This document shows positions 16,716 to 52,500 of a stretch of DNA of 64,000 nucleotides, in pieces (position 1 is the first letter of the stretch; the number at the start of each line of letters is the position of its first letter). This DNA is from Caldicellulosiruptor bescii DSM 6725 (lineage in GTDB: Bacteria > Bacillota > Thermoanaerobacteria > Caldicellulosiruptorales > Caldicellulosiruptoraceae). A program made the position numbers and the translations under genes. Under the pieces are notes generated by a model. The model was not told where the DNA came from, did not search any database, and saw only the letters and a list, made by a program, of their open reading frames with translations. The stretch spans positions 1,921,501 through 1,985,500 of the forward strand of contig NC_012034.1 in NCBI RefSeq assembly GCF_000022325.1. The letters run 5' to 3'.

Positions 16716-17047
16716 TTTCCTACATAAACCCCCTAACCCCTAATACTAAAAATGGTTGGATTTTATATGAATTTTAATTTTATCTGCTAAAGCTATTTCA
16801 CAATAAAGTTTATAACACAACTTGTCACAGTTAAAGCAAGAAAATTTTATTTTGGACAGGAAAATTTTAAGCATCTTTAAAAATAGTTTTTACCATATTA
16901 CAGCAATTTTATATGTTGGTTATTACTTTTTAATATGTATGTTATAGTAAATTCGTAGCTTAAAACATATTTCAAATTATACAACTTTATCTAAGCAATT
17001 TTACCATATATTTTTATTTACTAAAATTTATGTATTCAAACAAAAAA
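16716..17047. other. Intergenic region upstream of the AraC-type gene
   Basis: AT-rich, no coding potential seen. It should hold the promoter of the AraC-type gene; TATAAA-like boxes are present but none with a convincing -35 at proper spacing. Confidence 0.5.
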
Positions 17048-17080
17048 GGGTAGCACACCATACTTATAGTTGTGCTACCC
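17048..17080 (-). terminator. Intrinsic terminator of the GH10-GH48 gene
   Basis: 10-bp perfect arms (17048-17057 and 17071-17080, GGGTAGCACA type), 13-base loop, and six T on the minus-strand 3' side. It lies 27 bases past the stop. The same hairpin, minus the T run, follows the other two GH48 genes. Confidence 0.9.
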
Positions 17081-19324
17081 CGCTAAATTTTCATTTACCT
17101 ACTTAATTATTGATTGCCAAACAGTATTTCATATGTTGCATTAGCTATTGCTATGTCGCACTGTGCCCAGAACCTGTGATATCTGAACTCAGGTGCCTGC
17201 CCTGACTTGTATGCCGCCTCTAACTTCGGCCAATCAGGATCTTGTTTATACTTGCTCCTTATGTCTATAAACTTAACTCCACTCTTTATTACATCTCCAT
17301 TCGGCATCTTCCCTATCCATCCTGCCGGTATATATACCTCTTGCTCAAAGAACCTCTTGTAGTCCGCTCTCTTCTCTGGCGCTGACAATCCCTTCTCATC
17401 CCTGTACAACTTCCACATCCTGTCCAGCAATTCCTTCGCTAAATTCTTCGCTCCCTCATCAAATACCCCATACTTCTTCGTCCCTGCACTATAGTACAAC
17501 AACGCATTCGCCAATGACGCTGTTATTCCTAAGTCAGTACCATAGTCCACTACCTTAACATGTAAGTTGCTATTCCCTGTATACGCCCCGTTCCATGTAT
17601 CAGGTTGTCCGCTCCAATCAAGCGTCGACGGTATCGCAAACGTACCATCACTATTCAACTTCACTACACTCTTAACCCAGCTTACCCACTTCTCAAGCAG
17701 TGCTCCTGCGTCCTTATCTCCTGTCACATAGTAATACTCCGCTACCCTCTGCATCGACCATGCCTGGAATCCAAACCATGTGTTGCTCCCAGGATCATGA
17801 TATACCGGATTCGGTTCATATGCCATTCCATAAAATGTTGCTGTCCCTGCTGGATACTTCTCATATCTGCCATTCCATGAATTTGTCGCGCCTCCTGCTA
17901 TCGCTCCCTCCGCTGACTGTAACCACCTGTAAAATTCTATCTGCCTCTTCAAACTCTTTGCCCAGTCACTCGCTCCATTCGGCGACTTCGGCTTCATATC
18001 ACTATCATTCGCTAATGCCCATGCCGCCATCGGATTCTGATATCCAAAGTGCACATGGCTGCTCCCTATCTTCCATGACCATGCTCCATCCAATGCTCCA
18101 CCCCATGCATAATACCATGATAGCAGATAATGTGCACTGTCATACCCCGTTCCTCCAGCCGCATTCTTATCCTGACATCCTAATGGCTTGAAATACTTGT
18201 CAAACATCGCATACCTTAAATAGTCTCCCATCTTCGCTGCCTTCGCTACATAGCTGCTTATCTCATTAAACTTACCTTGCTCCTTCGCCCATACTTTCGC
18301 CCAATAAGTAGCCTGAATAGCTCTCGCATCAGCATCTGGTGCATCCGTATATCTCCACTGCTTCGAATAGTTCTGATCCTTAATAAACAAATCTAAAAAT
18401 CCATTCGGTCCGCCCCACTTGAATTCCTCCCAGCTCGGATGCGGCACCGTCTCCCATACAGACTCCTCAGGCCCTCTCTGGAACGTGTTGATAAATGATG
18501 CCCGACTTACTCCGTCCCCTCTCTTGCCATATCCATACCAGTTGTCTACGTCCATCAACCAGTGCATACCATACATTAATGTGCTACCATATGTGCTCAC
18601 AAGTTCATTATGCAACGGGTCTTTGCCAACAGGTACATTAAACTCCAACGGCGATGGATACTTGTCCGGTGTCTCCCACTCCCCTGCGTATGTCGCTGGC
18701 TTGTTAGGATCATATGACCTCATCGGCTGATCTTCCGCTGATGGTATCATATACTTCTCTAATGTGTCCCATGCTGTCTTAAATTTGCTCCAGTCACCCG
18801 TTAACTTACCATACACTGCCTCTAACCATACATAGTACGAAAATGCCTCACTCGTGGTCAAATGACCATAATCAGGTGCTTCGCATATCAATGTCTCTAC
18901 CGAATGATATGGTATCCCATCCTGGTTAAAATACCCGTTCGCAGGATCATGTATCTTGTTCCATAACCACATAAACCTCTGCCCATATTCGCCAAGCACA
19001 CTCGGTGTGCTGCTCGGCGTCGGTGTTGGTGTTGCTGTTACTGTTGGTGTCGCGGTTGGGGTTGGTGTTGGCGTCGGTGTTGGTGTTGGCGTTGCTGTTG
19101 GTGTAGCAGTTGGTGTTGGGGTCGGGGTTGGAGTTGGTGCTGGTGTGGGTGTCGGTGTCACTGTCGGTGCTGGTGTTGCTGTCGGTGTTGGTGTCGCTCC
19201 ACTCGGCTCCTGTCCCCATACCAATACACCATCTATATACGCTGTTACCTTCACATTCTCTCCATAACTCGTCATGCTCTGCATCCATGACCAGTCATTC
19301 CCCTGATTGTAATTGCTCCAGTCA
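17049..19324 (-). repeat. 2276-bp duplicated GH48 block, copy 1
   Basis: Appears identical to 26123-28398 at an offset of 9074 bases. It covers the terminator hairpin, the whole GH48 domain, the Pro/Thr linker and the end of the adjacent CBM3. The first difference seen is the Ser/Asp codon change at 19325 (28399). Confidence 0.88.
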
Positions 19325-21543
19325 CTCTTGTTAAACCTTATCTGTATCTCCCCTGTGTCTTTACCAGCCTGCAACTGCCCAGCTCCACTCTTAAATCCTA
19401 TCTCTAAATAATAGTCCGCTCCACTTACGCTACTGCTCAGCTTCACAAACTTGAATGTCACATTGCTTGCTCCTATCTGTGCCCAGTCTGATATCGCACT
19501 CTGTGCCTTGTCCCCATCTACCGTGTACCAGTACCTTATCGTTACCCTGCTCAAATCTATGCTGCTGCTTCCAGTGTTCACTACCTTCAACCATGGCCTT
19601 ATCGTGTTTGTTGTGCTATTTGTCTCCTTGTTAGCATACAATACCTTTATCTGTCCACCTGCTACAGGTGTGCTGCTCGGCGTCGGTGTTGGTGTTGGCG
19701 TTGCTGTTGGTGTAGCAGTTGGTGTTGACGTTGGTGTTGGTGTAGGTGTCGGTGTCACTGTCGGTGCTGGTGTTGCTGTCGGTGTTGGTGTCGCTCCACT
19801 CGGCTCCTGTCCCCATACCAATACACCATCTATATACGCTGTTACCTTCACATTCTCTCCATAATTCGTCATGCTCTGCATCCATGACCAGTCATTCCCC
19901 TGATTGTAATTGCTCCAGTCACTCTTGTTAAACCTTATCTGTATCTCCCCTGTGTCTTTACCAGCCTGCAACTGCCCAGCTCCACTCTTAAATCCTATCT
20001 CTAAATAATAGTCCGCTCCACTTACGCTACTGCTCAGCTTCACAAACTTGAATGTCACATTGCTTGCTCCTATCTGTGCCCAGTCTGATATCGCACTCTG
20101 TGCCTTGTCCCCATCTACCGTGTACCAGTACCTTATCGTTACCCTGCTCAAATCTATGCTGCTGCTTCCAGTGTTCACTACCTTCAACCATGGCCTTATC
20201 GTGTTTGTTGTGCTATTTGTCTCCTTGTTAGCATACAATACCTTTATCTGTCCACCTGCTACAGGTGTGCTGCTCGGCGTCGGTGTTGGTGTTGGCGTTG
20301 CTGTTGGTGTAGCAGTTGGTGTTGACGTTGGTGTTGGTGTAGGTGTCGGTGTTGGAGTCAGTGTTGGTGTTGGTGTTGGGGTCGGCGTAATAGTTGTAGT
20401 TGGAGCTGGTGTTGTTGATGTCCCTGATGCTTCTATTACTGCCCAATAAGCTGGTTTTGCACTGTAATCCTCAAAAAACAATAATGGCCAATCATTTTTG
20501 CCGTTAAAAGATCTTAACCATGAATAATCATCTTTTAATCCCCAAAATGTTACACATTTAACAACATTCGTATACTTCTTTAACATTGTAAATAATTCTT
20601 TGTACTTCTGAGCTTGCTTCTGAAGTAAGTCCTGTGGGGGTGTCGAATAGTTTTCGCTTGATCCGTAATTGTATAAACTCATATCAAGCTCTGTTATATG
20701 AATTTCTATGCCCGGTATTGAACTGAATAACTTTATGCTGTTCTCTATTTCGCTAACTGAAGGCCAGTTAACATTTATATGGCATTGCATTCCAATACCA
20801 TGTATTGGTATTCCTTTTGATTTTAAATTCTTAACCATGTTGTATATAAAATCTCTTTTCTTGGAAATCTCAGTATTATAGTCATTATAAAATAGCTTTG
20901 CGTTGGGATCTGCTTCATGTGCCCATATAAATGCTTTCTCAATGTATTCTGGTCCACAAATCTCATACCATGTCGACCGCCTATAACCATCAGACTGATT
21001 CTCATCAATGGCTTCATTTACAACGTCCCATGCGTATACTTTTCCCTTATACCTTCCTACAACATCATATATATATTGCTTCAATCTTGCTAACAACGCA
21101 TCCTTGGTTAACCTTTGTCCACTGCTGTCTTTAAAAAACCAATCAGGCGTCTGGCTGTGCCACACTAAAGTATGTCCTCTAATTCCTATATTGTTCGTAT
21201 TCGCAAAGTCTACAAAGGTATCAGCAGTGCTAAATCTATAATTTAAGCCTGTACTTGTTTGCCCAGCTAATAAACTTTCTGGCTTCATTTCATTCTCTGC
21301 TGTTATACTGTTAAAATGTTTCAATACCATCCTTCTGTCTGTATCGTTGCTCAAACATTTTGCAGGTATTGCTACACCTATCCTAAAATCATTCTTATAA
21401 CTCTCATATAAACTTGGAATGTTCCAGTCAGGTGCTGCTTTGGTTTCAATTGGATAATAACTCATCGTACCAAACAAACAAACACCTGCTATAAATGTAA
21501 TCAATACCACGTGAGTTATAATTTTAACTAATTTCTTCATCAT
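17107..21543 (-). CDS. Secreted bifunctional xylanase/cellulase GH10-CBM3-CBM3-GH48
   Basis: A 1478-aa exported enzyme. Signal peptide about 1-35. GH10 endoxylanase about 38-370 with acid/base Glu in [13 protein letters not shown] and nucleophile Glu in [13 protein letters not shown]. Pro/Thr linker, CBM3 about 430-585, linker, CBM3 about 630-785, long linker. GH48 reducing-end cellobiohydrolase about 850-1478, starting [15 protein letters not shown], with the proton-donor Glu in [21 protein letters not shown] precedes MMKKL. The xylanase and exocellulase activities on one chain suit xylan-coated cellulose. It is terminated independently and transcribed away from the AraC-type gene's upstream side. 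Its GH48 is a near-exact copy of that in the GH74 and CelA proteins. Confidence 0.95.
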
Positions 21544-21649
21544 ATTATCTACTAACCTCCTCTTTCTATTTTATTTTTTATTTTACATTTAGATATAATC
21601 ATTATAAATCATTATGAATAATATTTCATAAGTTCCAATAATAGCTACA

Positions 21650-22060
21650 ATTCCGCGCTATAAACTAAAGCCTGTAAAACCTAAGCTCTGGTGCCTGCCA
21701 AGATTCACACGTCAACTCTAACTGCTGCAAACTTAGATCCTGTTTTACTTTCTCCTTAATCTCTTTAAAAGCCTAATTCGTCTCTTTATTACCTTTTCAC
21801 TTGGTGTTTTTCCATTAAATCCTATCCGGTATAATTATCTCATGCTCAAAGAAACTCTTTTAGTCTACTCGATTCTCAAGCTTCGACAGTATCAACTCTC
21901 AAATAACTCCATTAAACTCTTAGTCCAGATTTCCTCTTCCCAAGCTGCACACCTGTCTCTTCATTATTTGCTGGATAAACACTGTCCTGCACTTTGTAAC
22001 GCCTATGCTTAAATACATACCATACATTGTTACATAAATCCTGACAGCCATACTACACAT
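21650..22060 (-). pseudogene. Eroded GH48 C-terminal fragment
   Basis: No open frame. Even so, the DNA aligns by eye to the 3' end of the intact GH48 modules: CTGGTGCCTGCC for CAGGTGCCTGCC, GATCCTGTTTTACTT for GATCTTGTTTATACTT, CTCATGCTCAAAGAAACTCTTTTAGTC for the segment encoding [21 protein letters not shown], and so on over about 260 bases. Further left, CATACCATACATTGTTAC resembles another GH48 segment, suggesting internal deletions. On the minus strand, fragments such as IIPDRI (for YIPAGWI) are readable between stops. It is a dead fourth GH48 copy downstream of the GH5-GH44 gene. Confidence 0.75.
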
Positions 22061-22094
22061 TCCGCTAACAATCTGGCAATGGCGCCAGAGCCAA

Positions 22095-22122
22095 CAAAAA
22101 CACCCATGCTTATGAAGGTGTC
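22095..22122 (-). terminator. Intrinsic terminator of the GH5-GH44 gene
   Basis: On the minus strand an ACACC...GGTGT hairpin with a small bulge is followed by TTTTTG. It lies about 20 bases past the GH5-GH44 stop. Confidence 0.7.
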
Positions 22123-22140
22123 TAAATACCGTTAAATGAT

Positions 22141-25100
22141 TTATTTAGTTTGTACTGAGGTTGAATATAAAACGATATGGAAAACTGTTAAATTAGGTAC
22201 CTCAAGAGTTAAAACATTGTTTTCGATATTATCCACACTTCCCATTTTTCTAACAGTAGGACTATTGCTATCAAAACCATAAATTTCTGCTTTTGTATAG
22301 TTTTTTGAACTTGTAATGCTGATCTTCGCAGGCAATTTTCTGTCATAGTTTCTGTTTATTAGTATAATATGAAGTTCAGAATCATCCTGTCCATTTATTG
22401 AAGCATAAACTGGCATATTTTCAACATCATTTGTATTAGCACCTACATTTGTATTGCCATATTTTGAGCCTTTTCCATCATAATTAAGATAAATGTTATA
22501 TGCAGCTGCTGCATAACTACCAGAATCGCCCCATCTTGCTGCAAAGTACACTCCATATTTACCAAATATACCGAGCACATCAGCTAAAGCAATTCCCCCT
22601 GAAATATGATTTCGACCGCCATAATCGAATTCGCTAATAGCAAGTTTTGTACCAGGATAATATTTCTCTATGTCCGCTTTTATGTTTGGAATTATAGGCA
22701 AATAATCTGAAAACCACTGGTTTATCCAGCTGTTCTCACCAGCTGTAATTTGCCCTTTCACTGATGTTTTGTAGGTCGGGTCCCATAGTGTTCTTGGAGC
22801 TTGCATCCTAGCTATAGCAACTTCTTTTGATGTGTCATTTTCGCCATCAAAGCACACGCGAATATTTCCACCTCGTGCTTCTGGATACCAGTGTAAATCA
22901 AGCACATCTAATAATCTTTTTCCATAACTGTCTGATGCTTTTTTCATCTGTTCCAGATACCAGCTTATAAACCATCTATGATCTCCTTTAACTTGGTTCC
23001 AATCAGGCGCATCTTGGAGACTATAATAACCCATAAACCCATATGATGCATATCCAAAAACTTCAGCTGATGGATCAAGGGTTTTTATAACTTTTGCCAG
23101 TTCAACAGATTTATCAATCAACTCTTTGCATGTGACCTTATTAGGATGTATACGGGGATGTGTTGAGACCCACAAATCAGGCTCATTATCAAGTATATAC
23201 CCTTTTATCCCGGTAGGTGAAGAAGCCATTCCGTATTTGTTTATCAAATAATTTATGAATTCATCCATATAAACAAAGTTATCATTCAAGTCTGGATTCA
23301 AAGATAAAGGAGCATCCTTCTTAAATTTTACCTCTGCCCACCTGTTAGATGGAGCTGTTTCATTTTCACTAACAGTACCATAATTATCTTTTGACACATA
23401 TCCTGCCATTTGCAAAGTTATAGCAGAATAAGCATTATTTTTAAGGGAATACTCATGAAATTTAGATACCACTGCTGCTGGAACCTTCGCATCTTCACCA
23501 GAAATTCCCATGCTCCAGCACAAATAATCGTCACTTGAATGATACCAATCGTTCCCCGCATTTGAAAAGTTGTTTTCCCAATTGTATCCTGTTAGTCTGT
23601 TTCCACCTAACCTTCTTGCAGGATGAACTACACCTCCAATATCCTGGTTTGCACCATAAATGTACGGGCTAATTGGTGACCTATCTTTATTTGTATTTAT
23701 TGCTATTTCAATAACAGCCGACGATGGTGATACTGTTGGTAATGGAATTGACGTTGCCGTGGGTGTTGGTGTAGCAGTTGGTGTTGGGGTCGGGGTTGGT
23801 GTTACTGTCGGTGTTGGCGTCGATGTCGATGTTGGTGCTGGTGTTGCTGTCGGTGTTGGTGTCGCTCCACTCGGCTCCTGTCCCCATACCAATACACCAT
23901 CTATATACGCTGTTACCTTCACATTCTCTCCATAACTCGTCATGCTCTGCATCCATGACCAGTCATTCCCCTGATTGTAATTGCTCCAGTCACTCTTGTT
24001 AAACCTTATCTGTATCTCCCCTGTGTCTTTACCAGCCTGCAACTGCCCAGCTCCACTCTTAAATCCTATCTCTAAATAATAGTCCGCTCCACTTACGCTA
24101 CTGCTCAGCTTCACAAACTTGAATGTCACATTGCTTGCTCCTATCTGTGCCCAGTCTGATATCGCACTCTGTGCCTTGTCCCCATCTACCGTGTACCAGT
24201 ACCTTATCGTTACCCTGCTCAAATCTATGCTGCTGCTTCCAGTGTTCACTACCTTCAACCATGGCCTTATCGTGTTTGTTGTGCTATTTGTCTCCTTGTT
24301 AGCATACAGTACCTTTATCTGTCCACCTGCTACAGGTGTACTGCTCGGCGTCGGTGTTGGGGTAGCAGTTGGTGTTGGTGTTGGAGTCGGTGTTGGCGTT
24401 GGTGTAGCAGTTGGTGTTGGGGTCGGGGTTGGTGTTGGTGCTGGTGTTGCTGTCGGTGTCACTGTCGGTGCTGGTGTTGCTGTCGGTGTTGGTGTCGCTC
24501 CACTCGGCTCCTGTCCCCATACCAATACACCATCTATATACGCTGTTACCTTCACATTCTCTCCATAACTCGTCATGCTCTGCATCCATGACCAGTCATT
24601 CCCCTGATTGTAATTGCTCCAGTCACTCTTGTTAAACCTTATCTGTATCTCCCCTGTGTCTTTACCAGCCTGCAACTGCCCAGCTCCACTCTTAAATCCT
24701 ATCTCTAAATAATAGTCCGCTCCACTTACGCTACTGCTCAGCTTCACAAACTTGAATGTCACATTGCTTGCTCCTATCTGTGCCCAGTCTGATATCGCAC
24801 TCTGTGCCTTGTCCCCATCTACCGTGTACCAGTACCTTATCGTTACCCTGCTCAAATCTATGCTGCTGCTTCCAGTGTTCACTACCTTCAACCATGGCCT
24901 TATCGTATTTGTTGTGCTATTTGTCTCCTTGTTAGCATACAATACCTTTATCTGTCCACCTGCTACAGGTGTGCTGCTCGGCGTCGGTGTTGGTGTTGGC
25001 GTTGCTGTTGGTGTAGCAGTTGGTGTCGGTGTTGGTGTTGAAGTAGGTACTGAAGAGGCACCAATCGCATTAGTTTTATACCATTGCCCCCATGGAGTTG

Positions 25101-26025
25101 GATTATTGGGGTCCCAATTGTTTACCATGTCCAAGTACCCTACATAGCTCGAATTGCCACACCAAGACCAGCTAAAAAGTCCTATCTTGTATTGTTTTGC
25201 ATACCTGACAATAGCTTCCTCGTCAGGGTCACCATCTGTATGCTGATGCCCAAACTCCCCAATAACTAATGGCAGCCCTTTCTCCACAAATGACTTGATA
25301 TATTCTTCTACCTTGCTCGCTGTATTGTATACACCGTACATATGAATCGAAAATACCAAATTGCGCAGCGGATCTGCTTCCATTATGCTCTGGGCATTGT
25401 CTCTCATAGTATTAGACCAATCCTGCCCCCAGTTCGGTGCATCAACCATTATCGTGTGCTTGAACCCTGCATCCCTTAGCGCTTTTATAGCATTCTTCGT
25501 GTCATTAATCCAGTTTTGATAGTTATTGTTCCCATACGGCTCATTACCAATGTTTATTATAACAAAATCCTCATTGCCTTCTAACACACTCTTTATCTCT
25601 TTCCAATATTCTACTGCTTGCGCCAATGAACATGCTGCACCGTCCTCACCATATCCTGTCGTGTCGTGAACTTCTAATACAATGGCTCTGAATCCAAGAC
25701 TTCTTGACAATGATATAATATTTGCTACTTCACTTGCTGGTATCTTCGTCCATCGATAGCCATTACTCAACACTACCCTCACAGAGTTCATACCCCATGA
25801 CCTTATTCCTCGCAATGCCGTCTCAAGTTTATCTCTGTACCAGCAATGTGCGTGATTTGTTCCTATTAATGTGCTAGTATCTATCTTCACTACTCCATCA
25901 TTAGATGTAGCCGCACCAACTTTGGGTAAATTCGTTACATTTGCTATAAACAAAATGTTCAATAAAAAAACAACTGTACATAGTATACTCAACCATTTCT
26001 TCCCCATTTTTGTTTTTACTCTCAT
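22141..26025 (-). CDS. Secreted mannanase/glucanase GH5-CBM3-CBM3-GH44
   Basis: 1294 aa. Signal peptide about 1-38 ([20 protein letters not shown]). GH5 of the mannanase (subfamily 8-like) type about 42-330, with catalytic Glu in [13 protein letters not shown] and nucleophile Glu in [14 protein letters not shown]. Pro/Thr linkers flank two CBM3 modules (about 345-500 and 562-720). GH44 endoglucanase/xyloglucanase about 775-1294, with acid/base Glu in [15 protein letters not shown] and nucleophile Glu in [13 protein letters not shown]. The ATG follows AGAGGGGGTTAGG. The GH5 half and everything upstream are duplicated exactly at 46-47 kb. It degrades mannan with the N-terminal module and beta-1,4-glucans with the C-terminal one (family knowledge). 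Confidence 0.95.
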
Positions 26026-26114: not shown

Positions 26115-26161
26115 TTTAGCGAGGTAGCACACCATACTTATAGTTGTGCTACCCCGCTAAA
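26115..26161 (-). terminator. Hairpin after the GH74-GH48 gene
   Basis: 17-bp arms with one G-U pair (26115-26131 and 26145-26161), 13-base loop, 20 bases past the GH48 stop. Unlike the copy at 17048 it lacks a T run, so termination may be weak and allow read-through into the GH5-GH44 gene. Confidence 0.7.
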
Positions 26162-26180
26162 TTTTCATTTACCTACTTAA

Positions 26181-29100
26181 TTATTGATTGCCAAACAGTA
26201 TTTCATATGTTGCATTAGCTATTGCTATGTCGCACTGTGCCCAGAACCTGTGATATCTGAACTCAGGTGCCTGCCCTGACTTGTATGCCGCCTCTAACTT
26301 CGGCCAATCAGGATCTTGTTTATACTTGCTCCTTATGTCTATAAACTTAACTCCACTCTTTATTACATCTCCATTCGGCATCTTCCCTATCCATCCTGCC
26401 GGTATATATACCTCTTGCTCAAAGAACCTCTTGTAGTCCGCTCTCTTCTCTGGCGCTGACAATCCCTTCTCATCCCTGTACAACTTCCACATCCTGTCCA
26501 GCAATTCCTTCGCTAAATTCTTCGCTCCCTCATCAAATACCCCATACTTCTTCGTCCCTGCACTATAGTACAACAACGCATTCGCCAATGACGCTGTTAT
26601 TCCTAAGTCAGTACCATAGTCCACTACCTTAACATGTAAGTTGCTATTCCCTGTATACGCCCCGTTCCATGTATCAGGTTGTCCGCTCCAATCAAGCGTC
26701 GACGGTATCGCAAACGTACCATCACTATTCAACTTCACTACACTCTTAACCCAGCTTACCCACTTCTCAAGCAGTGCTCCTGCGTCCTTATCTCCTGTCA
26801 CATAGTAATACTCCGCTACCCTCTGCATCGACCATGCCTGGAATCCAAACCATGTGTTGCTCCCAGGATCATGATATACCGGATTCGGTTCATATGCCAT
26901 TCCATAAAATGTTGCTGTCCCTGCTGGATACTTCTCATATCTGCCATTCCATGAATTTGTCGCGCCTCCTGCTATCGCTCCCTCCGCTGACTGTAACCAC
27001 CTGTAAAATTCTATCTGCCTCTTCAAACTCTTTGCCCAGTCACTCGCTCCATTCGGCGACTTCGGCTTCATATCACTATCATTCGCTAATGCCCATGCCG
27101 CCATCGGATTCTGATATCCAAAGTGCACATGGCTGCTCCCTATCTTCCATGACCATGCTCCATCCAATGCTCCACCCCATGCATAATACCATGATAGCAG
27201 ATAATGTGCACTGTCATACCCCGTTCCTCCAGCCGCATTCTTATCCTGACATCCTAATGGCTTGAAATACTTGTCAAACATCGCATACCTTAAATAGTCT
27301 CCCATCTTCGCTGCCTTCGCTACATAGCTGCTTATCTCATTAAACTTACCTTGCTCCTTCGCCCATACTTTCGCCCAATAAGTAGCCTGAATAGCTCTCG
27401 CATCAGCATCTGGTGCATCCGTATATCTCCACTGCTTCGAATAGTTCTGATCCTTAATAAACAAATCTAAAAATCCATTCGGTCCGCCCCACTTGAATTC
27501 CTCCCAGCTCGGATGCGGCACCGTCTCCCATACAGACTCCTCAGGCCCTCTCTGGAACGTGTTGATAAATGATGCCCGACTTACTCCGTCCCCTCTCTTG
27601 CCATATCCATACCAGTTGTCTACGTCCATCAACCAGTGCATACCATACATTAATGTGCTACCATATGTGCTCACAAGTTCATTATGCAACGGGTCTTTGC
27701 CAACAGGTACATTAAACTCCAACGGCGATGGATACTTGTCCGGTGTCTCCCACTCCCCTGCGTATGTCGCTGGCTTGTTAGGATCATATGACCTCATCGG
27801 CTGATCTTCCGCTGATGGTATCATATACTTCTCTAATGTGTCCCATGCTGTCTTAAATTTGCTCCAGTCACCCGTTAACTTACCATACACTGCCTCTAAC
27901 CATACATAGTACGAAAATGCCTCACTCGTGGTCAAATGACCATAATCAGGTGCTTCGCATATCAATGTCTCTACCGAATGATATGGTATCCCATCCTGGT
28001 TAAAATACCCGTTCGCAGGATCATGTATCTTGTTCCATAACCACATAAACCTCTGCCCATATTCGCCAAGCACACTCGGTGTGCTGCTCGGCGTCGGTGT
28101 TGGTGTTGCTGTTACTGTTGGTGTCGCGGTTGGGGTTGGTGTTGGCGTCGGTGTTGGTGTTGGCGTTGCTGTTGGTGTAGCAGTTGGTGTTGGGGTCGGG
28201 GTTGGAGTTGGTGCTGGTGTGGGTGTCGGTGTCACTGTCGGTGCTGGTGTTGCTGTCGGTGTTGGTGTCGCTCCACTCGGCTCCTGTCCCCATACCAATA
28301 CACCATCTATATACGCTGTTACCTTCACATTCTCTCCATAACTCGTCATGCTCTGCATCCATGACCAGTCATTCCCCTGATTGTAATTGCTCCAGTCATC
28401 CTTGTTAAACCTTATCTGTATCTCCCCTGTGTCTTTACCAGCCTGCAACTGCCCAGCTCCACTCTTAAATCCTATCTCTAAATAATAGTCCGCTCCACTT
28501 ACGCTACTGCTCAGCTTCACAAACTTGAATGTCACATTGCTTGCTCCTATCTGTGCCCAGTCTGATATCGCACTCTGTGCCTTGTCCCCATCTACCGTGT
28601 ACCAGTACCTTATCGTTACCCTGCTCAAATCTATGCTGCTGCTTCCAGTGTTCACTACCTTCAACCATGGCCTTATCGTATTTGTTGTGCTATTTGTCTC
28701 CTTGTTAGCATACAATACCTTTATCTGTCCACCTGCTACAGGTGTGCTGCTCGGCGTCGGTGTTGGTGTTGCTGTTACTGTTGGTGTCGCGGTTGGGGTT
28801 GGTGTTGGCGTCGGTGTTGGTGTTGGCGTTGCTGTTGGTGTAGCAGTTGGTGTTGGGGTCGGGGTTGGAGTTGGTGCTGGTGTGGGTGTCGGTGTCACTG
28901 TCGGTGCTGGTGTTGCTGTCGGTGTTGGTGTCGCTCCACTCGGCTCCTGTCCCCATACCAATACACCATCTATATACGCTGTTACCTTCACATTCTCTCC
29001 ATAACTCGTCATGCTCTGCATCCATGACCAGTCATTCCCCTGATTGTAATTGCTCCAGTCATCCTTGTTAAACCTTATCTGTATCTCCCCTGTGTCTTTA

Positions 29101-31895
29101 CCAGCCTGCAACTGCCCAGCTCCACTCTTAAATCCTATCTCTAAATAATAGTCCGCTCCACTTACGCTACTGCTCAGCTTCACAAACTTGAATGTCACAT
29201 TGCTTGCTCCTATCTGTGCCCAGTCTGATATCGCACTCTGTGCCTTGTCCCCATCTACCGTGTACCAGTACCTTATCGTTACCCTGCTCAAATCTATGCT
29301 GCTACTTCCAGTGTTCACTACCTTCAACCATGGCCTTATCGTATTTGTTGTGCTATTTGTCTCCTTGTTAGCATACAATACCTTTATCTGTCCACCTGCT
29401 ACAGGTGTGCTGCTCGGCGTCGGTGTTGGTGTTGGCGTTGCTGTTGGTGTAGCAGTTGGTGTTGACGTTGGTGTTGGTGTAGGTGTCGGTGTTGGTGTAG
29501 CAGTTGATGTTGGTGTTGGTGTTGGTGTTGGTGTTGGCGTTGGTGTAGCAGTTGGTGTTGGGGTCAGTGTAGCAGTTACTGTTGGTGCTGGCGTTGATGT
29601 TGGAATTGTAGCACTATCAGCAATTTCACCCCATTTTATTCCTAAACCATTAGTAGCAACGAATACTCTTCCATATACTCTTTGGTCTCCAGTAATGTCT
29701 GCATTAGCACAACCAAATTGATTATTATCATCATTTATTCTTACCCAACTTGCACCTGCATCATCAGATCTAAATATTCCTCTGATTCCATTTATCTTTG
29801 CATAAGTGTAGATTGCCGGATATGTTTTTCCCTCTGCAGGTTTACCAAACCCAATACTTGCTGCTTCTTCTACATTTCCAATTTTTGTAAACGTATAACC
29901 ACCATCAACCGAATGCCACATTCCATTATTGCCGACTAACCATATATCACCTTCACGACCAGGAACAGCTTTAAAGTTCCCGCTTGTTGGCAAGCCAGAA
30001 GCTGGTGATTGAACAAAGGTTTTTCCTTTGTCACTACTAATGTAGAATTTTCCATCTTTAAAAGCATAAAACTTGTTTGGATTAACTCTATCAGAGTATA
30101 CAATCGCTCCGGAAGGTACATTGGCACATTGATACCATGTATTACCATTGTCTGTGGAATAGGATACAGGAGCTCCTTTTGGTGCCCACACAACTACACT
30201 AGCATCAGCAGCTGCAGCAACTGTTCCACCTTCTGTCATTCCTTGAGGTTCTTGATTACCTTGGAACCATGATTTCCCACCATCATACGAAAAACCAATT
30301 CTATTTGTGTTTGGATTCCATGTTTTGTCAACATTCCCTACACGCACCATAAAGTTTGGATTCAATTCAGCGTAATCTATATCAGTAGTCGAACCCATAT
30401 TGGGTTGAGTATATGTCCAGTTGGGTGCTTTCTCCAAATCATCATGTCTAAACCCAGCAATATCGTATATTGCACTAAATAAATGTGGTCCGATTGGTGG
30501 GCTTACTAATGCTGCAACTGATGTTTCTTCTATTCCAATTCCTTTTACTTTAATTGTTATCTTTTCACCTTTATCCCATTTAGTTAAATCATCACACCCA
30601 TATAACGTAGCACCTGTCCCATATAACATTCTATCAGAGTTAAATGGATCAATCTCAAGGGCTGCAACCATCCAACCAAGCTTTGGACTTGTCTCGGGAG
30701 GAATTGGATTCGTAATACCAAAATTCAACCATGGAGCTGCAGAAATATCCATAGTATAGTGAAGCGTTCTGTTAGGATATCCAGCCCATTCCCATATACA
30801 CTTCCATGTTTCACCGCCATCTGTACTACGCCAAATATAAGTATCAGGCCACCATGAACTCAAAGCTGCTACCATTACCACCTTTGGATTTTGAGCATCA
30901 ACAGCTAATCCTCCATATCCAAAATAAGTATCTTTTGCTGGCATTGGACTTATGTTCTTCCATTCGCCAGTTTTAGTATTATATCTCCATACTTCTCCAT
31001 AGTCACCGTTGTAAGGGCCCTGAGTATTGCTATATGTTATATACAGCATCCCATCTGAGCTTAACTTTGCATGTTGTGGAAGTAAACCTGTAGGTTGTCC
31101 TGGTAGTGCCTCCCATGTTTGCCCACCATCTTTTGTATAGTATATGCTTGTATTTTTATCAGCTACCCCTACATAAATCACTTTGCTTCCTTCTCCGGGT
31201 TTACCGCTCGTTGGATCAAATACAACCCATACTACACCTGTAATATGATTCAAATAATCATGAGGACAATTCGGGTCTTCAACATATGTTCCTGGGTTCG
31301 GGAAGTTCTCTACTTTTTTCCACGTTACGCCATAATCTATACTTTTCCATAGTCCATTTCCTTCGCGTGTACCTAAATATAAGATATTATTGTGATTCGG
31401 ATCAATAGCTAATCTCTCTCCCATATTTCGACCAGGCATATTACCGCCCAATTTGAATGGTAAAGGAGTACGTTCAAATGTATTACCTTTATCTTTTGAA
31501 CGTAAAAGGACCCCATTCATATTTGTCCAACTATTAGTGTAAGTACCAGCAGCAATGTAGAGTCGATTTGGATCAACAGGATCTGTTGCTATACTTTCTA
31601 CGCCTAATAAATTCCACTCATCAAAACTAACCCAATTCATAAGCTGTGTCCACGTATTGCCACCATCTGTACTTCTGTAAGCACCGCCAATATCTGTTCT
31701 TACATAAACTAAGTTTTTTTCTTTAGGATTAAAAACTATTCCCGTAATAAAACCGCCGCCACCTTCAATTTTTACATTTTTCCAAATGTATTTTTGAGTG
31801 GTGACTATACTCTCTGCCTTCACTGGAAAAGTTAAGCTATACATTACTGTACATAAAAAGATAATTGCAATAAATAACGCTATACCCCTTCGCAT
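26181..31895 (-). CDS. Secreted xyloglucanase/cellulase GH74-CBM3-CBM3-GH48
   Basis: 1904 aa, the longest protein here. Signal peptide about 1-27. GH74 double seven-bladed propeller about 33-770 with repeated blade motifs ([42 protein letters not shown]) and the [19 protein letters not shown] region that holds a catalytic Asp of the family. Long Pro/Thr linkers, two CBM3 modules (about 860-1015 and 1080-1235), GH48 about 1275-1904. Both CBM3 copies read FNKDDW where the other CBM3 copies here read FNKSDW. The ATG follows AGAGGGGGTTAAG. It should cut xyloglucan with GH74 and cellulose chain ends with GH48. The GH48 DNA is identical to that of CelA. Confidence 0.95.
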
Positions 31896-47065: not shown

Positions 47066-49187
47066 CTTAAAACCTAACCCCCTCTTTTTTATGCATTTTT
47101 GCCATTATACCTCTTTATTTTTTGTACTATTTTCTAAACACCTCCATACAGGATTTTAGCGAGGTAGCACACCATACTTATAGTTGTGCTACCCCGCTAA
47201 ATTTTCATTTACCTACTTAATTATTGATTGCCAAACAGTATTTCATATGTTGCATTAGCTATTGCTATGTCGCACTGTGCCCAGAACCTGTGATATCTGA
47301 ACTCAGGTGCCTGCCCTGACTTGTATGCCGCCTCTAACTTCGGCCAATCAGGATCTTGTTTATACTTGCTCCTTATGTCTATAAACTTAACTCCACTCTT
47401 TATTACATCTCCATTCGGCATCTTCCCTATCCATCCTGCCGGTATATATACCTCTTGCTCAAAGAACCTCTTGTAGTCCGCTCTCTTCTCTGGCGCTGAC
47501 AATCCCTTCTCATCCCTGTACAACTTCCACATCCTGTCCAGCAATTCCTTCGCTAAATTCTTCGCTCCCTCATCAAATACCCCATACTTCTTCGTCCCTG
47601 CACTATAGTACAACAACGCATTCGCCAATGACGCTGTTATTCCTAAGTCAGTACCATAGTCCACTACCTTAACATGTAAGTTGCTATTCCCTGTATACGC
47701 CCCGTTCCATGTATCAGGTTGTCCGCTCCAATCAAGCGTCGACGGTATCGCAAACGTACCATCACTATTCAACTTCACTACACTCTTAACCCAGCTTACC
47801 CACTTCTCAAGCAGTGCTCCTGCGTCCTTATCTCCTGTCACATAGTAATACTCCGCTACCCTCTGCATCGACCATGCCTGGAATCCAAACCATGTGTTGC
47901 TCCCAGGATCATGATATACCGGATTCGGTTCATATGCCATTCCATAAAATGTTGCTGTCCCTGCTGGATACTTCTCATATCTGCCATTCCATGAATTTGT
48001 CGCGCCTCCTGCTATCGCTCCCTCCGCTGACTGTAACCACCTGTAAAATTCTATCTGCCTCTTCAAACTCTTTGCCCAGTCACTCGCTCCATTCGGCGAC
48101 TTCGGCTTCATATCACTATCATTCGCTAATGCCCATGCCGCCATCGGATTCTGATATCCAAAGTGCACATGGCTGCTCCCTATCTTCCATGACCATGCTC
48201 CATCCAATGCTCCACCCCATGCATAATACCATGATAGCAGATAATGTGCACTGTCATACCCCGTTCCTCCAGCCGCATTCTTATCCTGACATCCTAATGG
48301 CTTGAAATACTTGTCAAACATCGCATACCTTAAATAGTCTCCCATCTTCGCTGCCTTCGCTACATAGCTGCTTATCTCATTAAACTTACCTTGCTCCTTC
48401 GCCCATACTTTCGCCCAATAAGTAGCCTGAATAGCTCTCGCATCAGCATCTGGTGCATCCGTATATCTCCACTGCTTCGAATAGTTCTGATCCTTAATAA
48501 ACAAATCTAAAAATCCATTCGGTCCGCCCCACTTGAATTCCTCCCAGCTCGGATGCGGCACCGTCTCCCATACAGACTCCTCAGGCCCTCTCTGGAACGT
48601 GTTGATAAATGATGCCCGACTTACTCCGTCCCCTCTCTTGCCATATCCATACCAGTTGTCTACGTCCATCAACCAGTGCATACCATACATTAATGTGCTA
48701 CCATATGTGCTCACAAGTTCATTATGCAACGGGTCTTTGCCAACAGGTACATTAAACTCCAACGGCGATGGATACTTGTCCGGTGTCTCCCACTCCCCTG
48801 CGTATGTCGCTGGCTTGTTAGGATCATATGACCTCATCGGCTGATCTTCCGCTGATGGTATCATATACTTCTCTAATGTGTCCCATGCTGTCTTAAATTT
48901 GCTCCAGTCACCCGTTAACTTACCATACACTGCCTCTAACCATACATAGTACGAAAATGCCTCACTCGTGGTCAAATGACCATAATCAGGTGCTTCGCAT
49001 ATCAATGTCTCTACCGAATGATATGGTATCCCATCCTGGTTAAAATACCCGTTCGCAGGATCATGTATCTTGTTCCATAACCACATAAACCTCTGCCCAT
49101 ATTCGCCAAGCACACTCGGTGTGCTGCTCGGCGTCGGTGTTGGTGTTGCTGTTACTGTTGGTGTCGCGGTTGGGGTTGGTGTTGGCG
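46041..49187 (-). repeat. 3147-bp duplicated block, copy 2
   Basis: Counterpart of 25001-28147; it covers the N-terminal half of the GH5-GH5 gene, its leader, the hairpin after celA and the celA GH48 module. Confidence 0.88.
47155..47201 (-). terminator. Hairpin after celA
   Basis: Same 17-bp hairpin as at 26115-26161, without a T run, 20 bases after the celA stop. Partial read-through from celA into the GH5-GH5 gene is therefore plausible. Confidence 0.7.
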
Positions 49188-52100
49188 TTGGTGTTGGTGT
49201 AGCAGTTGGTGTTGGTGTCGGGGTTGGAGTTGGTGCTGGTGTAGGTGTCGGTGTCACTGTCGGTGCTGGTGTCGCTGTCGGTGTTGGTGTCGCTCCACTC
49301 GGCTCCTGTCCCCATACCAATACACCATCTATATACGCTGTTACCTTCACATTCTCTCCATAATTCGTCATGCTCTGCATCCATGACCAGTCATTCCCCT
49401 GATTGTAATTGCTCCAGTCACTCTTGTTAAACCTTATCTGTATCTCCCCTGTGTCTTTACCAGCCTGCAACTGCCCAGCTCCACTCTTAAATCCTATCTC
49501 TAAATAATAGTCCGCTCCACTTACGCTACTGCTCAGCTTCACAAACTTGAATGTCACATTGCTTGCTCCTATCTGTGCCCAGTCTGATATCGCACTCTGT
49601 GCCTTGTCCCCATCTACCGTGTACCAGTACCTTATCGTTACCCTGCTCAAATCTATGCTGCTGCTTCCAGTGTTCACTACCTTCAACCATGGCCTTATCG
49701 TGTTTGTTGTGCTATTTGTCTCCTTGTTAGCATACAATACCTTTATCTGCCCGCCTGCTACAGGTGTGCTGCTCGGCGTCGGTGTTGGTGTTGGCGTTGC
49801 TGTTGGTGTAGCAGTTGGTGTTGACGTTGGTGTTGGTGTAGGTGTCGGTGTCACTGTCGGTGCTGGTGTCGCTGTCGGTGTTGGTGTCGCTCCACTCGGC
49901 TCCTGTCCCCATACCAATACACCATCTATATACGCTGTTACCTTCACATTCTCTCCATAATTCGTCATGCTCTGCATCCATGACCAGTCATTCCCCTGAT
50001 TGTAATTGCTCCAATCACTCTTGTTAAACCTTATCTGTATCTCCCCTGTGTCTTTGCCAGCCTGCAACTGCCCAGCTCCACTCTTAAATCCTATCTCTAA
50101 ATAATAGTCCGCTCCACTTACGCTACTGCTCAGCTTCACAAACTTGAATGTCACATTGCTTGCTCCTATCTGTGCCCAGTCTGATATCGCACTCTGTGCC
50201 TTGTCCCCATCTACCGTGTACCAGTACCTTATCGTTACCCTGCTCAAATCTATGCTGCTGCTTCCAGTGTTCACTACCTTCAACCATGGCCTTATCGTAT
50301 TAGTTGTGCTATTTGTCTCCTTGTTAGCATACAATACCTTTATCTGTCCACCTGCTACAGGTGTGCTGCTCGGCGTCGATGTTGGTGTTGGCGTTGCTGT
50401 TGGTGTAGCAGTCGGTGTCGGAGTCGGGGTTGGTGTTACTGTCGGTGTTGGTGTCGGTGTTGGTGTAGCAGTTGATGTTGGTGTTGGAGTCGGTGTTGGT
50501 GTTACTGTCGGCGTTGGTGTTGGTGTTGCTGTTGCTGTTGGTGTCGGTGTTGCTCCAGAAGTTCCTGGTTCTTCACCCCATACTTTCACATCTCCATCAT
50601 AAAGTGGAATATATTTAGTTTTAACAACTGAACCACTTGAAACTCCCTTTATATCCTGGAAAGAATAGTCGTTAGAATTATCCCACTGTACATTCTGTGG
50701 TGCTGCAATTCTGAATTGGACTTCTTTCTTATATTTGTCTTGACCACCTGGATAAATCAATGTGCCAGTAAAGTCTACTAAAATGTAGTATATATTTTTG
50801 CTTGCATCCCATACATAAGGTCCACTTACTTTTGCACCTTGATTATAATTGGTGCTCAAGGTTAATTGATTTGGTGAATATCCTGCTTTAATTAATTCAC
50901 TCAGGTCAACAAAATATCTAAATTTAAGCTTATCTGTTGCTCTGGCAGGCCAACCACTTTGGTTATTAACTATCGCTTTAATTTCAATAAAGTTAGTTCC
51001 GGATGCATTTATACCAGCTTCAACAAAGAATTCGTCGTTTGTTGGAGTTTCAATAGCTTTGAAATCTGGTATTGGATTCCCACCGTACAATTGATACATC
51101 TTTGCTAATGCACCCACAAACCCTGCATTATAATCACATGCAACCTCATTGTTCACATAGTTACTTATATCATCTGTGTAGCTATCATCAGAGCCTGGAC
51201 CACCAACAAGCGCTCCATATAATGTATGTCTGTGATATGAAGGTATACTCTGACTGTCTGCCCATGAGCTATGAGCAGTTCTGTGATGCGGTCTCTTTGG
51301 TGGATTTGTACCAAATCCAACAACAAAGCTTCTTCCAGCTGAGCCTAACGCATAATCAATCTGGCTTTCTCCAAATTTTCTATATATTTCTTTTTTTGTG
51401 CTTGGACAGCCAACCCAATCGCTATAAACAAATGCCAAAAATGCTGTAGTTGTTGCATATCTCAACGAACCCCATTGATCAAGCCATGCTAATCCTTTTG
51501 GTGTATACTTAATCCTTTCGCCATTGTATCCTGTAGTCCAGTAATCTAAGTGACTTTCAATAATTTGTTTATAAATATCCTTACCGGTAATTTTTGCTAA
51601 CAATAATGCCGCTCCATTGTGAACATCATCCCAGCAATGAGCCCACTTGTAGTCAATTGTGTTACTGCCAGAAATTTTGGGCCAATTTTGGACATATGAC
51701 TCAGCTTTTGTGAGATATGTTGAATCATTTGTTGCCAAATACAACCAAACTGCTGCCCAAGAAAGCTCATCATAGAAACCGCTCCATGAATTGTAATATC
51801 CATTTGCAGCAGTGTAACCTGCATCGCTTTTTGTTACTTCTGCAAACTCATATAATTCTTTTGCATGTTGCAGATATGTTGCTGCTTTAGTGGGATTTCT
51901 GTCTTTCAAAACAATTGAAGCTGCTGCTAAGGAAGCTGCTGTCTCTGCTACTACTGTAGATCCAGGACTGCTTTGGGTGACCTTAAATGAAGGTCTCTCC
52001 ATTTGCATAACCTCAGCAGGTCCCCACCATGCATGATCTTTACTTCCATCCCCAACCTGGTAATAGTATACATATTTGCTTGGATGACATTTTACAAAAT

Positions 52101-52500
52101 AGTCATTAACCCATTCGATTTGATTTAAGATATGTTCCAATTGACCACTCTTGACAAATGCATCTTTGTACTCATACACTGCCCATGACAACATTGTACC
52201 AGTGTATGACATTGGAAGGTTAAACTTGACGTGATCACCTGCGTCAAACCAACCACCTGTCAAATCAAGCCCATTGTCTTGACCATCCTTTAATGCTGAG
52301 TCGCCACGCCAGTTGTTGCGTACCCAATTCGGAAGTTTACCAGACATTTGAAATTCGTAAAACATGATAGCTTTTTGTAAAGCTTCCCCATAGTTAAACG
52401 AACCAGCCCTAACCTCTTGCCATGGTTTAACTCCATATACCACTCCTAAAATAAATATGAAGGTTACAACCATGGCAATAATTCTTCTGTAACGCTTCAT
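47221..52500 (-). CDS. celA: CelA: secreted cellulase GH9-CBM3c-CBM3-CBM3-GH48
   Basis: 1759 aa, the length I recall for C. bescii CelA. Signal peptide about 1-32. GH9 about 34-480, with the Asp pair in [15 protein letters not shown] and the acid Glu in [16 protein letters not shown]3c about 485-650 ([16 protein letters not shown]). Pro/Thr linkers, two CBM3 anchoring modules, then GH48 about 1130-1759 with [17 protein letters not shown]9 works as processive endoglucanase and GH48 as reducing-end exoglucanase on the same chain; CelA is the main secreted cellulase of the genus. AGGAGG is present 9 bases before the ATG and a strong sigma-A promoter lies immediately upstream. A c-di-GMP riboswitch with its own promoter lies about 0.55 kb further upstream. 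Confidence 0.97.

Follow-up and report, generated by a model that had tools for sequence, protein, structure and literature searches.

The window analysed here is the whole stretch of 64,000 nucleotides (bases 1921501-1985500 of contig C1) from the genome of a thermophilic, plant-degrading bacterium, which comprises 2.93 Mb in 3 contigs. By Pfam matches and the locus description in PMC5865380, the gene set agrees with the glucan degradation locus of Caldicellulosiruptor (now Anaerocellum) bescii. In that description, Athe_1857 is CelF (GH10-2CBM-GH48), Athe_1859 is GH5-2CBM3-GH44, Athe_1860 is GH74-2CBM-GH48, Athe_1866 is GH5-3CBM3-GH5 and Athe_1867 is CelA. The cellulase genes of the locus are encoded on the minus strand and, in the direction of transcription, are ordered as CelA, GH5-GH5, GH9-GH5, four other genes, GH74-GH48, GH5-GH44, a spacer of 597 bp (21544-22140) and GH10-GH48. 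Thirteen CBM3 copies were found in the region searched. For the gene at 26181-31895, the Pfam scan gave repeat families for the N-terminal part and the name GH74 was taken from PMC5865380, which was also the source of the name GH9 in CelA. The features needed for the analysis are the following.

17107-21543, minus strand: GH10-CBM3-CBM3-GH48 gene (celF), downstream of the relic, with a living GH48 copy (Pfam)
21544-21590, minus strand: leader of celF with a stretch resembling a ribosome-binding site; within the spacer, this part is conserved in both clades
21582-21901, minus strand: GH48 relic, C-terminal piece, the last ~97 codons and ~19 bp past the stop position (blastn)
21876-22044, minus strand: GH48 relic, upstream piece, ~170-231 codons before the module stop (blastn)
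22045-22140, minus strand: 3′ flank of the GH5-GH44 gene, from the stop codon to the relic, without a GH module match
22141-26025, minus strand: GH5-CBM3-CBM3-GH44 gene, whose end module is the proposed replacement of GH48 (Pfam GH5, two CBM3, GH44)
23753-25048, minus strand: two CBM3 modules with their linkers in the GH5-GH44 gene, the proposed homologous anchor (identity to the blocks of the GH48 genes)
26181-31895, minus strand: GH74-CBM3-CBM3-GH48 gene, upstream of GH5-GH44, with a living GH48 copy (Pfam GH48 and CBM3)
47221-52500, minus strand: CelA (GH9-CBM3-GH48), with the third living GH48 copy (GH48 by PF02011)

The spacer 21544-22140 was compared with the remaining window by blastn (scoring 1/-1), and two matches to the 3′ end of a GH48 module were found. 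Positions 21582-21901 matched 17088-17398 at 66.7% identity over 321 columns (E 4.5e-33), and positions 21876-22044 matched 17618-17800 at 63.4% over 186 columns (E 1.5e-8). Both matches recurred at the other two GH48 copies on the same strand and in the same order, and the same co-linear pair was present in G006, one of the 12 genomes of the genus that were compared (G000 is the window's own genome). About 220 bp of the GH48 module (17399-17617) is missing between the two pieces. A Smith-Waterman alignment of 21650-22060 with 17100-18000 scored 228.5, and none of 100 dinucleotide shuffles reached this score (76.8 ± 6.4); on the wrong strand the score was 30.0, at the shuffle level of 29.2. 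The shuffles and the wrong-strand control rule out a chance or low-complexity match as the source of the likeness to GH48.

These results bear on an earlier note on this DNA, which had claimed that the spacer aligns to the GH48 3′ end over a few hundred bases and had proposed the comparison with 17100-18000 against shuffled controls. A score no higher than those controls, named there as the refuting outcome, was not observed. The alignment was recovered as two co-linear blocks spanning 463 bp. The note had placed the relic at 21650-22060, but its true extent is 21582-22044, with about 220 bp of the module skipped. The further claim that a GH48-type C-terminus once ended here is supported by the homology, which extends ~19 bp beyond the stop position. 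In the spacer, positions 21582-22044 are the defunct 3′ terminus of a GH48 module.

The relic has drifted without protein constraint, because its alignment with GH48 contained 22 gaps, 15 of which were frameshifting, and because identity was flat over codon positions 1, 2 and 3 (76/69/69%, and 70/69/71% in the G006 homologue). The three sense frames of the spacer held 13, 17 and 20 stops, so the earlier description of this DNA as full of stops and indels was accurate. The G000 and G006 spacers differed by ~8-10%, and the GH44 and GH10 modules on either side differed by 4.3-4.6% at their 4-fold sites. The spacer thus changes at least as fast as the 4-fold sites of its neighbours, and nothing visible holds it back. 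In a GH48 tree, the relic was found on a very long branch nearest to the clade I copies, a position that was not used for dating. Two small open reading frames of 56 and 46 codons lie inside the relic, at 21842-22012 (plus strand) and 21920-22060 (minus strand), and one of them may, as a guess, account for the tag missing between Athe_1857 and Athe_1859. By class, the object is an ordinary gene relic, a GH48 pseudogene, and an unusually legible record of module exchange. It has the stops, frameshifts, internal deletion and lack of a codon-position signal that are generally known from bacterial pseudogene fragments, but differs from these in that its edges suggest an exchanged module and in that it probably sits where the following gene has its promoter region.

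The three living GH48 copies in G000 showed 0 mismatches over 1890 bp and are therefore identical, as had been claimed. Within genomes the GH48 copies differed at 0-10 of 1890 positions, and between genomes at 9-263, with an overlap of the two ranges only for the close pair G000 and G006. The copies, being more alike within than between genomes, undergo concerted evolution (gene conversion), which agrees with the earlier view that they are kept uniform. Identical GH48 and GH5 copies in the locus are also recorded in the part of PMC4892530 that treats it. At about 67% identity, the relic would no longer join in this homogenisation. The match of the celF GH48 copy to its two counterparts continued for 58 bp into the 3′ flank, showing that homogenisation extends beyond the stop codon. 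These homogenised flanks (17049-17106, 26123-26180 and 47163-47220) contain a strong terminator-like hairpin, and 17030-17106 folds with a z of -5.4.

A repeated constant region that could be used as an anchor upstream of an exchanged module is present in the GH5-GH44 gene. Its CBM3 block (25048-23753) was 94-95% identical to its counterpart in each of the three GH48 genes, a similarity that stops at 23753, before GH44. On the other side of GH44, the relic begins about 97 bp after the stop codon, and the putative right join would lie between 22045 and 22140, where the hairpin was weak (z -1.64). The GH44 3′ flank in this interval was unlike the GH44 3′ flanks in G007, and as a candidate donor for GH44, G007 gave a negative result, its GH44 3′ flanks being alike to each other and not to this spacer. 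When the spacer 21544-22140 was scanned for modules, only GH48 was found, with no CBM3, linker or N-terminal GH48. A scan for similar scars in the 10 window spacers over 80 bp found a module relic in 21544-22140 only, and when 46 spacers of relatives were included, module relics appeared only in the G000 and G006 spacers; the G009 relic fell just under the threshold, though it was detected by direct comparison with GH48. In three further spacers, parts of intact genes were hit at 94-100%, along with weaker copies of these.

A GH5-CBM3-GH48 gene probably exchanged its terminal GH48 for GH44, leaving ~230 GH48 codons behind that decayed. The order of events that we infer starts from an ancestral gene at this place that would have ended in CBM3-GH48, so that GH48 would have been the former end of this same gene. 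An incoming DNA piece carrying CBM3-GH44-stop would have recombined into the ancestral gene by a mechanism of one-sided homology, with the left side of the exchange passing through the near-identical CBM3 repeats and the right side formed by a non-homologous join inside GH48. The gene would have become GH5-CBM3-CBM3-GH44, and the last ~230 GH48 codons would have been stranded behind the new stop codon. A deletion of ~220 bp and further decay, free of protein constraint, would have followed in the stranded tail, and homogenisation would have continued among the intact GH48 copies of each genome.

Among the 12 genomes of the genus, GH48 was found in eight and a GH44 match above the family cut-off in seven. 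A scan for additional named relatives gave 80 loci, none of them from this genus, and the comparison leaves these loci aside. The order CelA, GH5-...-X, GH10 is kept in six of the eight GH48-bearing genomes, where X is GH44 in G006, G002, G003, G008 and G011 and GH48 in G007. The gene between CelA and the GH10 gene is GH5-CBM3-CBM3-GH44 in the first five. In G007, an intact gene with one GH12, one GH5, three CBM3 and a terminal GH48 lies between CelA and a GH10-CBM3x3-GH48 gene, and its GH5 is the same module, at 87% identity. The GH12-GH5-CBM3x3-GH48 architecture is given for three other named species in PMC7142884. The G007 gene supports replacement, because it has the arrangement predicted for the ancestor. 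Against this, G007 is not a clear outgroup and its GH48 state may be a later remodelling; the extra GH12 and the different surroundings also speak against G007 as a model of the ancestor. At the position in related species that the earlier note had singled out for inspection, GH48 stands at the gene end in G007, and a separate gene between GH5-GH44 and GH10 was found in 0 of 8 genomes.

A full-length match to the spacer was found only in G000 and G006 (90%), with a partial match in G009, and these were the three genomes of the 12 in which direct homology of the spacer to GH48 exceeded the shuffles. G009 is without the GH5-GH44 gene; here CelA, its 3′ flank, the GH5 leader and the first ~13 codons join the relic at window position ~21722, and the relic is followed by a GH10-CBM3-CBM3-GH5 gene. 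The G009 junction (L029, 5890-6423) is a deletion join to the relic, apparently at a few shared bases.

In G002, G003, G008 and G011, 585-652 bp separate the GH5-GH44 gene from the GH10 gene, and this spacer can be aligned with those of G000 and G006. With the celF leader and the GH44 flank removed, the comparisons between clade II-type and clade I-type spacers were matched by 0/200 shuffles in seven of eight cases and by 3/200 in the eighth, and in a second version of the test by 0/200 in all eight. By direct alignment, the likeness to GH48 in the G002, G003, G008 and G011 spacers was at or near shuffle level, and their homology to the clade I spacer thus implies a GH48 origin there by transitivity only. 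The spacer thus predates the split of the two spacer types, with its GH48 origin legible only in the first, G000-like type. Decay shared between the clades was also sought by column counts, but shuffled controls were nearly as high and no conclusion was drawn. The clearest cross-clade conservation was in the last ~46 bp of the spacer, and the celF leader (21544-21590) matched at 84-86% in G002, G003, G008 and G011. Between G000 and clade II, identity was 78-99% in GH44, fell to 54-65% over the spacer and rose again to 80-89% in GH10, and the alignment of the G011 and G000 spacers starts within 22045-22140.

Two observations were made further along the locus in relatives. In G008 (L034, 10036-15225), a GH10-CBM3-CBM3-GH12-GH48 gene has GH12 between CBM3 and GH48, a further indication that modules move about at the junction with CBM3. 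In G002 (L030, 412-4148), the gene that follows GH10-GH48 seems broken, while G008 has it intact; 302 bp from its 5′ end are not covered by the open reading frames found in G002, and the remainder is spread over two of them; it seems to be either a pseudogene or an assembly error.

Between the two spacer types, the GH10 modules showed differences at 57-60% of their 4-fold sites. In these pairs, the rpoB difference at 4-fold sites was 46-49% where the species clades differ and 24.5% for G003, and the GH44, CelA-GH9, GH48 and GH5 modules differed at 16-35%. The rpoB trees placed G003 in clade I and G007 as sister to G008 inside clade II, and a GH10 DNA tree did not separate the branching order of G007, clade I and clade II. 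The G003 (L031) and G008 (L034) spacers were about 96% identical to that of G002 (L030), and their GH10 modules showed only a 5-7% 4-fold difference from G002. A G002-like spacer and GH10 in G003 and G008, against their rpoB placement, indicate that parts of the locus were exchanged across species, and thus the species tree alone cannot polarise the locus.

The relic could also be the by-product of an insertion. One crossover in GH48, as when a plasmid integrates, would then have placed the GH5-GH44 gene between CelA and the GH10 gene, and a partial second copy of the CelA GH48 end would have stayed behind the insert. This would fit with GH5-GH44 directly following CelA in five of the six genomes that have it, with the GH48 end of CelA immediately upstream, and for rhs tips, PMC2935791 proposes a model in which a circle is inserted by a single crossover. 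We nevertheless consider such a partial duplication unlikely. It leaves the G007 GH5 gene ending in GH48 at that place unexplained, and it predicts a GH48 terminator after the relic. Remains of the terminator behind the relic were not above shuffles in G000, G006 and G009 and were weak in G011 (11-33/300 shuffles), although it may have decayed.

The earlier note had left two possibilities, namely that GH44 replaced GH48 or that a whole GH48 gene died. The latter, in which an entire GH48 gene of its own would have stood between GH5-GH44 and the GH10 gene and decayed there until only its 3′ end was left, appears distinctly improbable. Large deletions do occur here, as in G009, but the deletion would need to end within ~97 bp of the GH44 stop and leave GH44 untouched, and none of the eight genomes examined has a gene there. 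Replacement is favoured over death in place because of this short distance, because no CBM3, linker or GH48 N-terminus is left and because the gene order is kept in six of eight genomes. That the spacer is instead a functional element (small RNA, leader or promoter) with incidental likeness to GH48 would fit with its place as the promoter region of celF but is barely credible, since the likeness is co-linear over 463 bp and so far above shuffles that an incidental origin is refuted, no Rfam covariance model matched up to E 0.5 and 21560-21660 folded like shuffles (z 0.16), both of which dispose of a conserved small RNA, a simple promoter scan gave 6 sites compared to 3.5 ± 1.8 in shuffles, and the spacer has the rapid change described above.

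The position of the relic has a bearing on celF. The promoter region of celF shares motifs with celA1 according to PMC8579813 and PMC5865380, and judging from the gene order, this region would be the spacer 21544-22140 or part of it. In the start-site data presented in PMC8579813, most mapped start sites are at most 180 bp from the start codon, with a median of 50 bp. The edge of the relic (21582) is only 38 bp from the celF start codon, and with such start-site distances the celF promoter probably overlaps dead GH48. A sigma-A-type promoter with its -35 box more than 38 bp from the celF start and downstream of 22044 would overlap the relic, and the sites in the promoter scan were not clearly above chance. 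It is conceivable, though we put it forward tentatively, that a separate promoter for celF (GH10-GH48) evolved inside or across the stranded GH48 tail and that the tail became regulatory DNA. If true, a single module swap altered one enzyme and also placed the gene downstream under separate control.

Comparable exchanges have been described elsewhere. The account of rhs loci in PMC2935791 reports C-terminal exchange with the old end displaced downstream, and the likeness to the locus studied here lies in a constant core that serves as anchor, a variable end that is exchanged and an old end located downstream of the new one. However, each dissociated rhs tip is preceded by a fragment of the core in that account, whereas the GH48 relic has no preceding CBM3 copy; the relic also consists of a single eroded tail, not of arrayed tips, and secreted cellulases are the proteins concerned. 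For Vibrio T6SS clusters, effector displacement by homology-facilitated illegitimate recombination is proposed (PMC5361080, PMC3240628). One-sided homology, a non-homologous join on the opposite side and a downstream remnant (PMC5361080) would be shared with the present case, where the right join is presumed. The Vibrio clusters keep an intact immunity gene according to PMC5361080, in contrast to the truncated, dead module end found here. For the Caldicellulosiruptor glucan degradation locus itself, PMC7142884 proposes post-duplication gene recombination and module reshuffling to explain its diversity. This is the locus studied here, and the relic adds a physical trace of one event. In the parts of the papers returned by a literature search, no published description of the relic at this place was found.

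This genus has multi-module cellulases that serve as industrial models, and in general terms recombination has been named as the source of their diversity. The two-sided scar makes one such event concrete, with a module out, a module in, a probable anchor repeat and a downstream side without homology. The relic also offers a reason for the long spacer before celF and suggests a way for a gene at the end of a row to gain separate control. Should one-sided homology be a general route of module exchange, it would be worth seeking comparable scars behind other modular enzyme genes.
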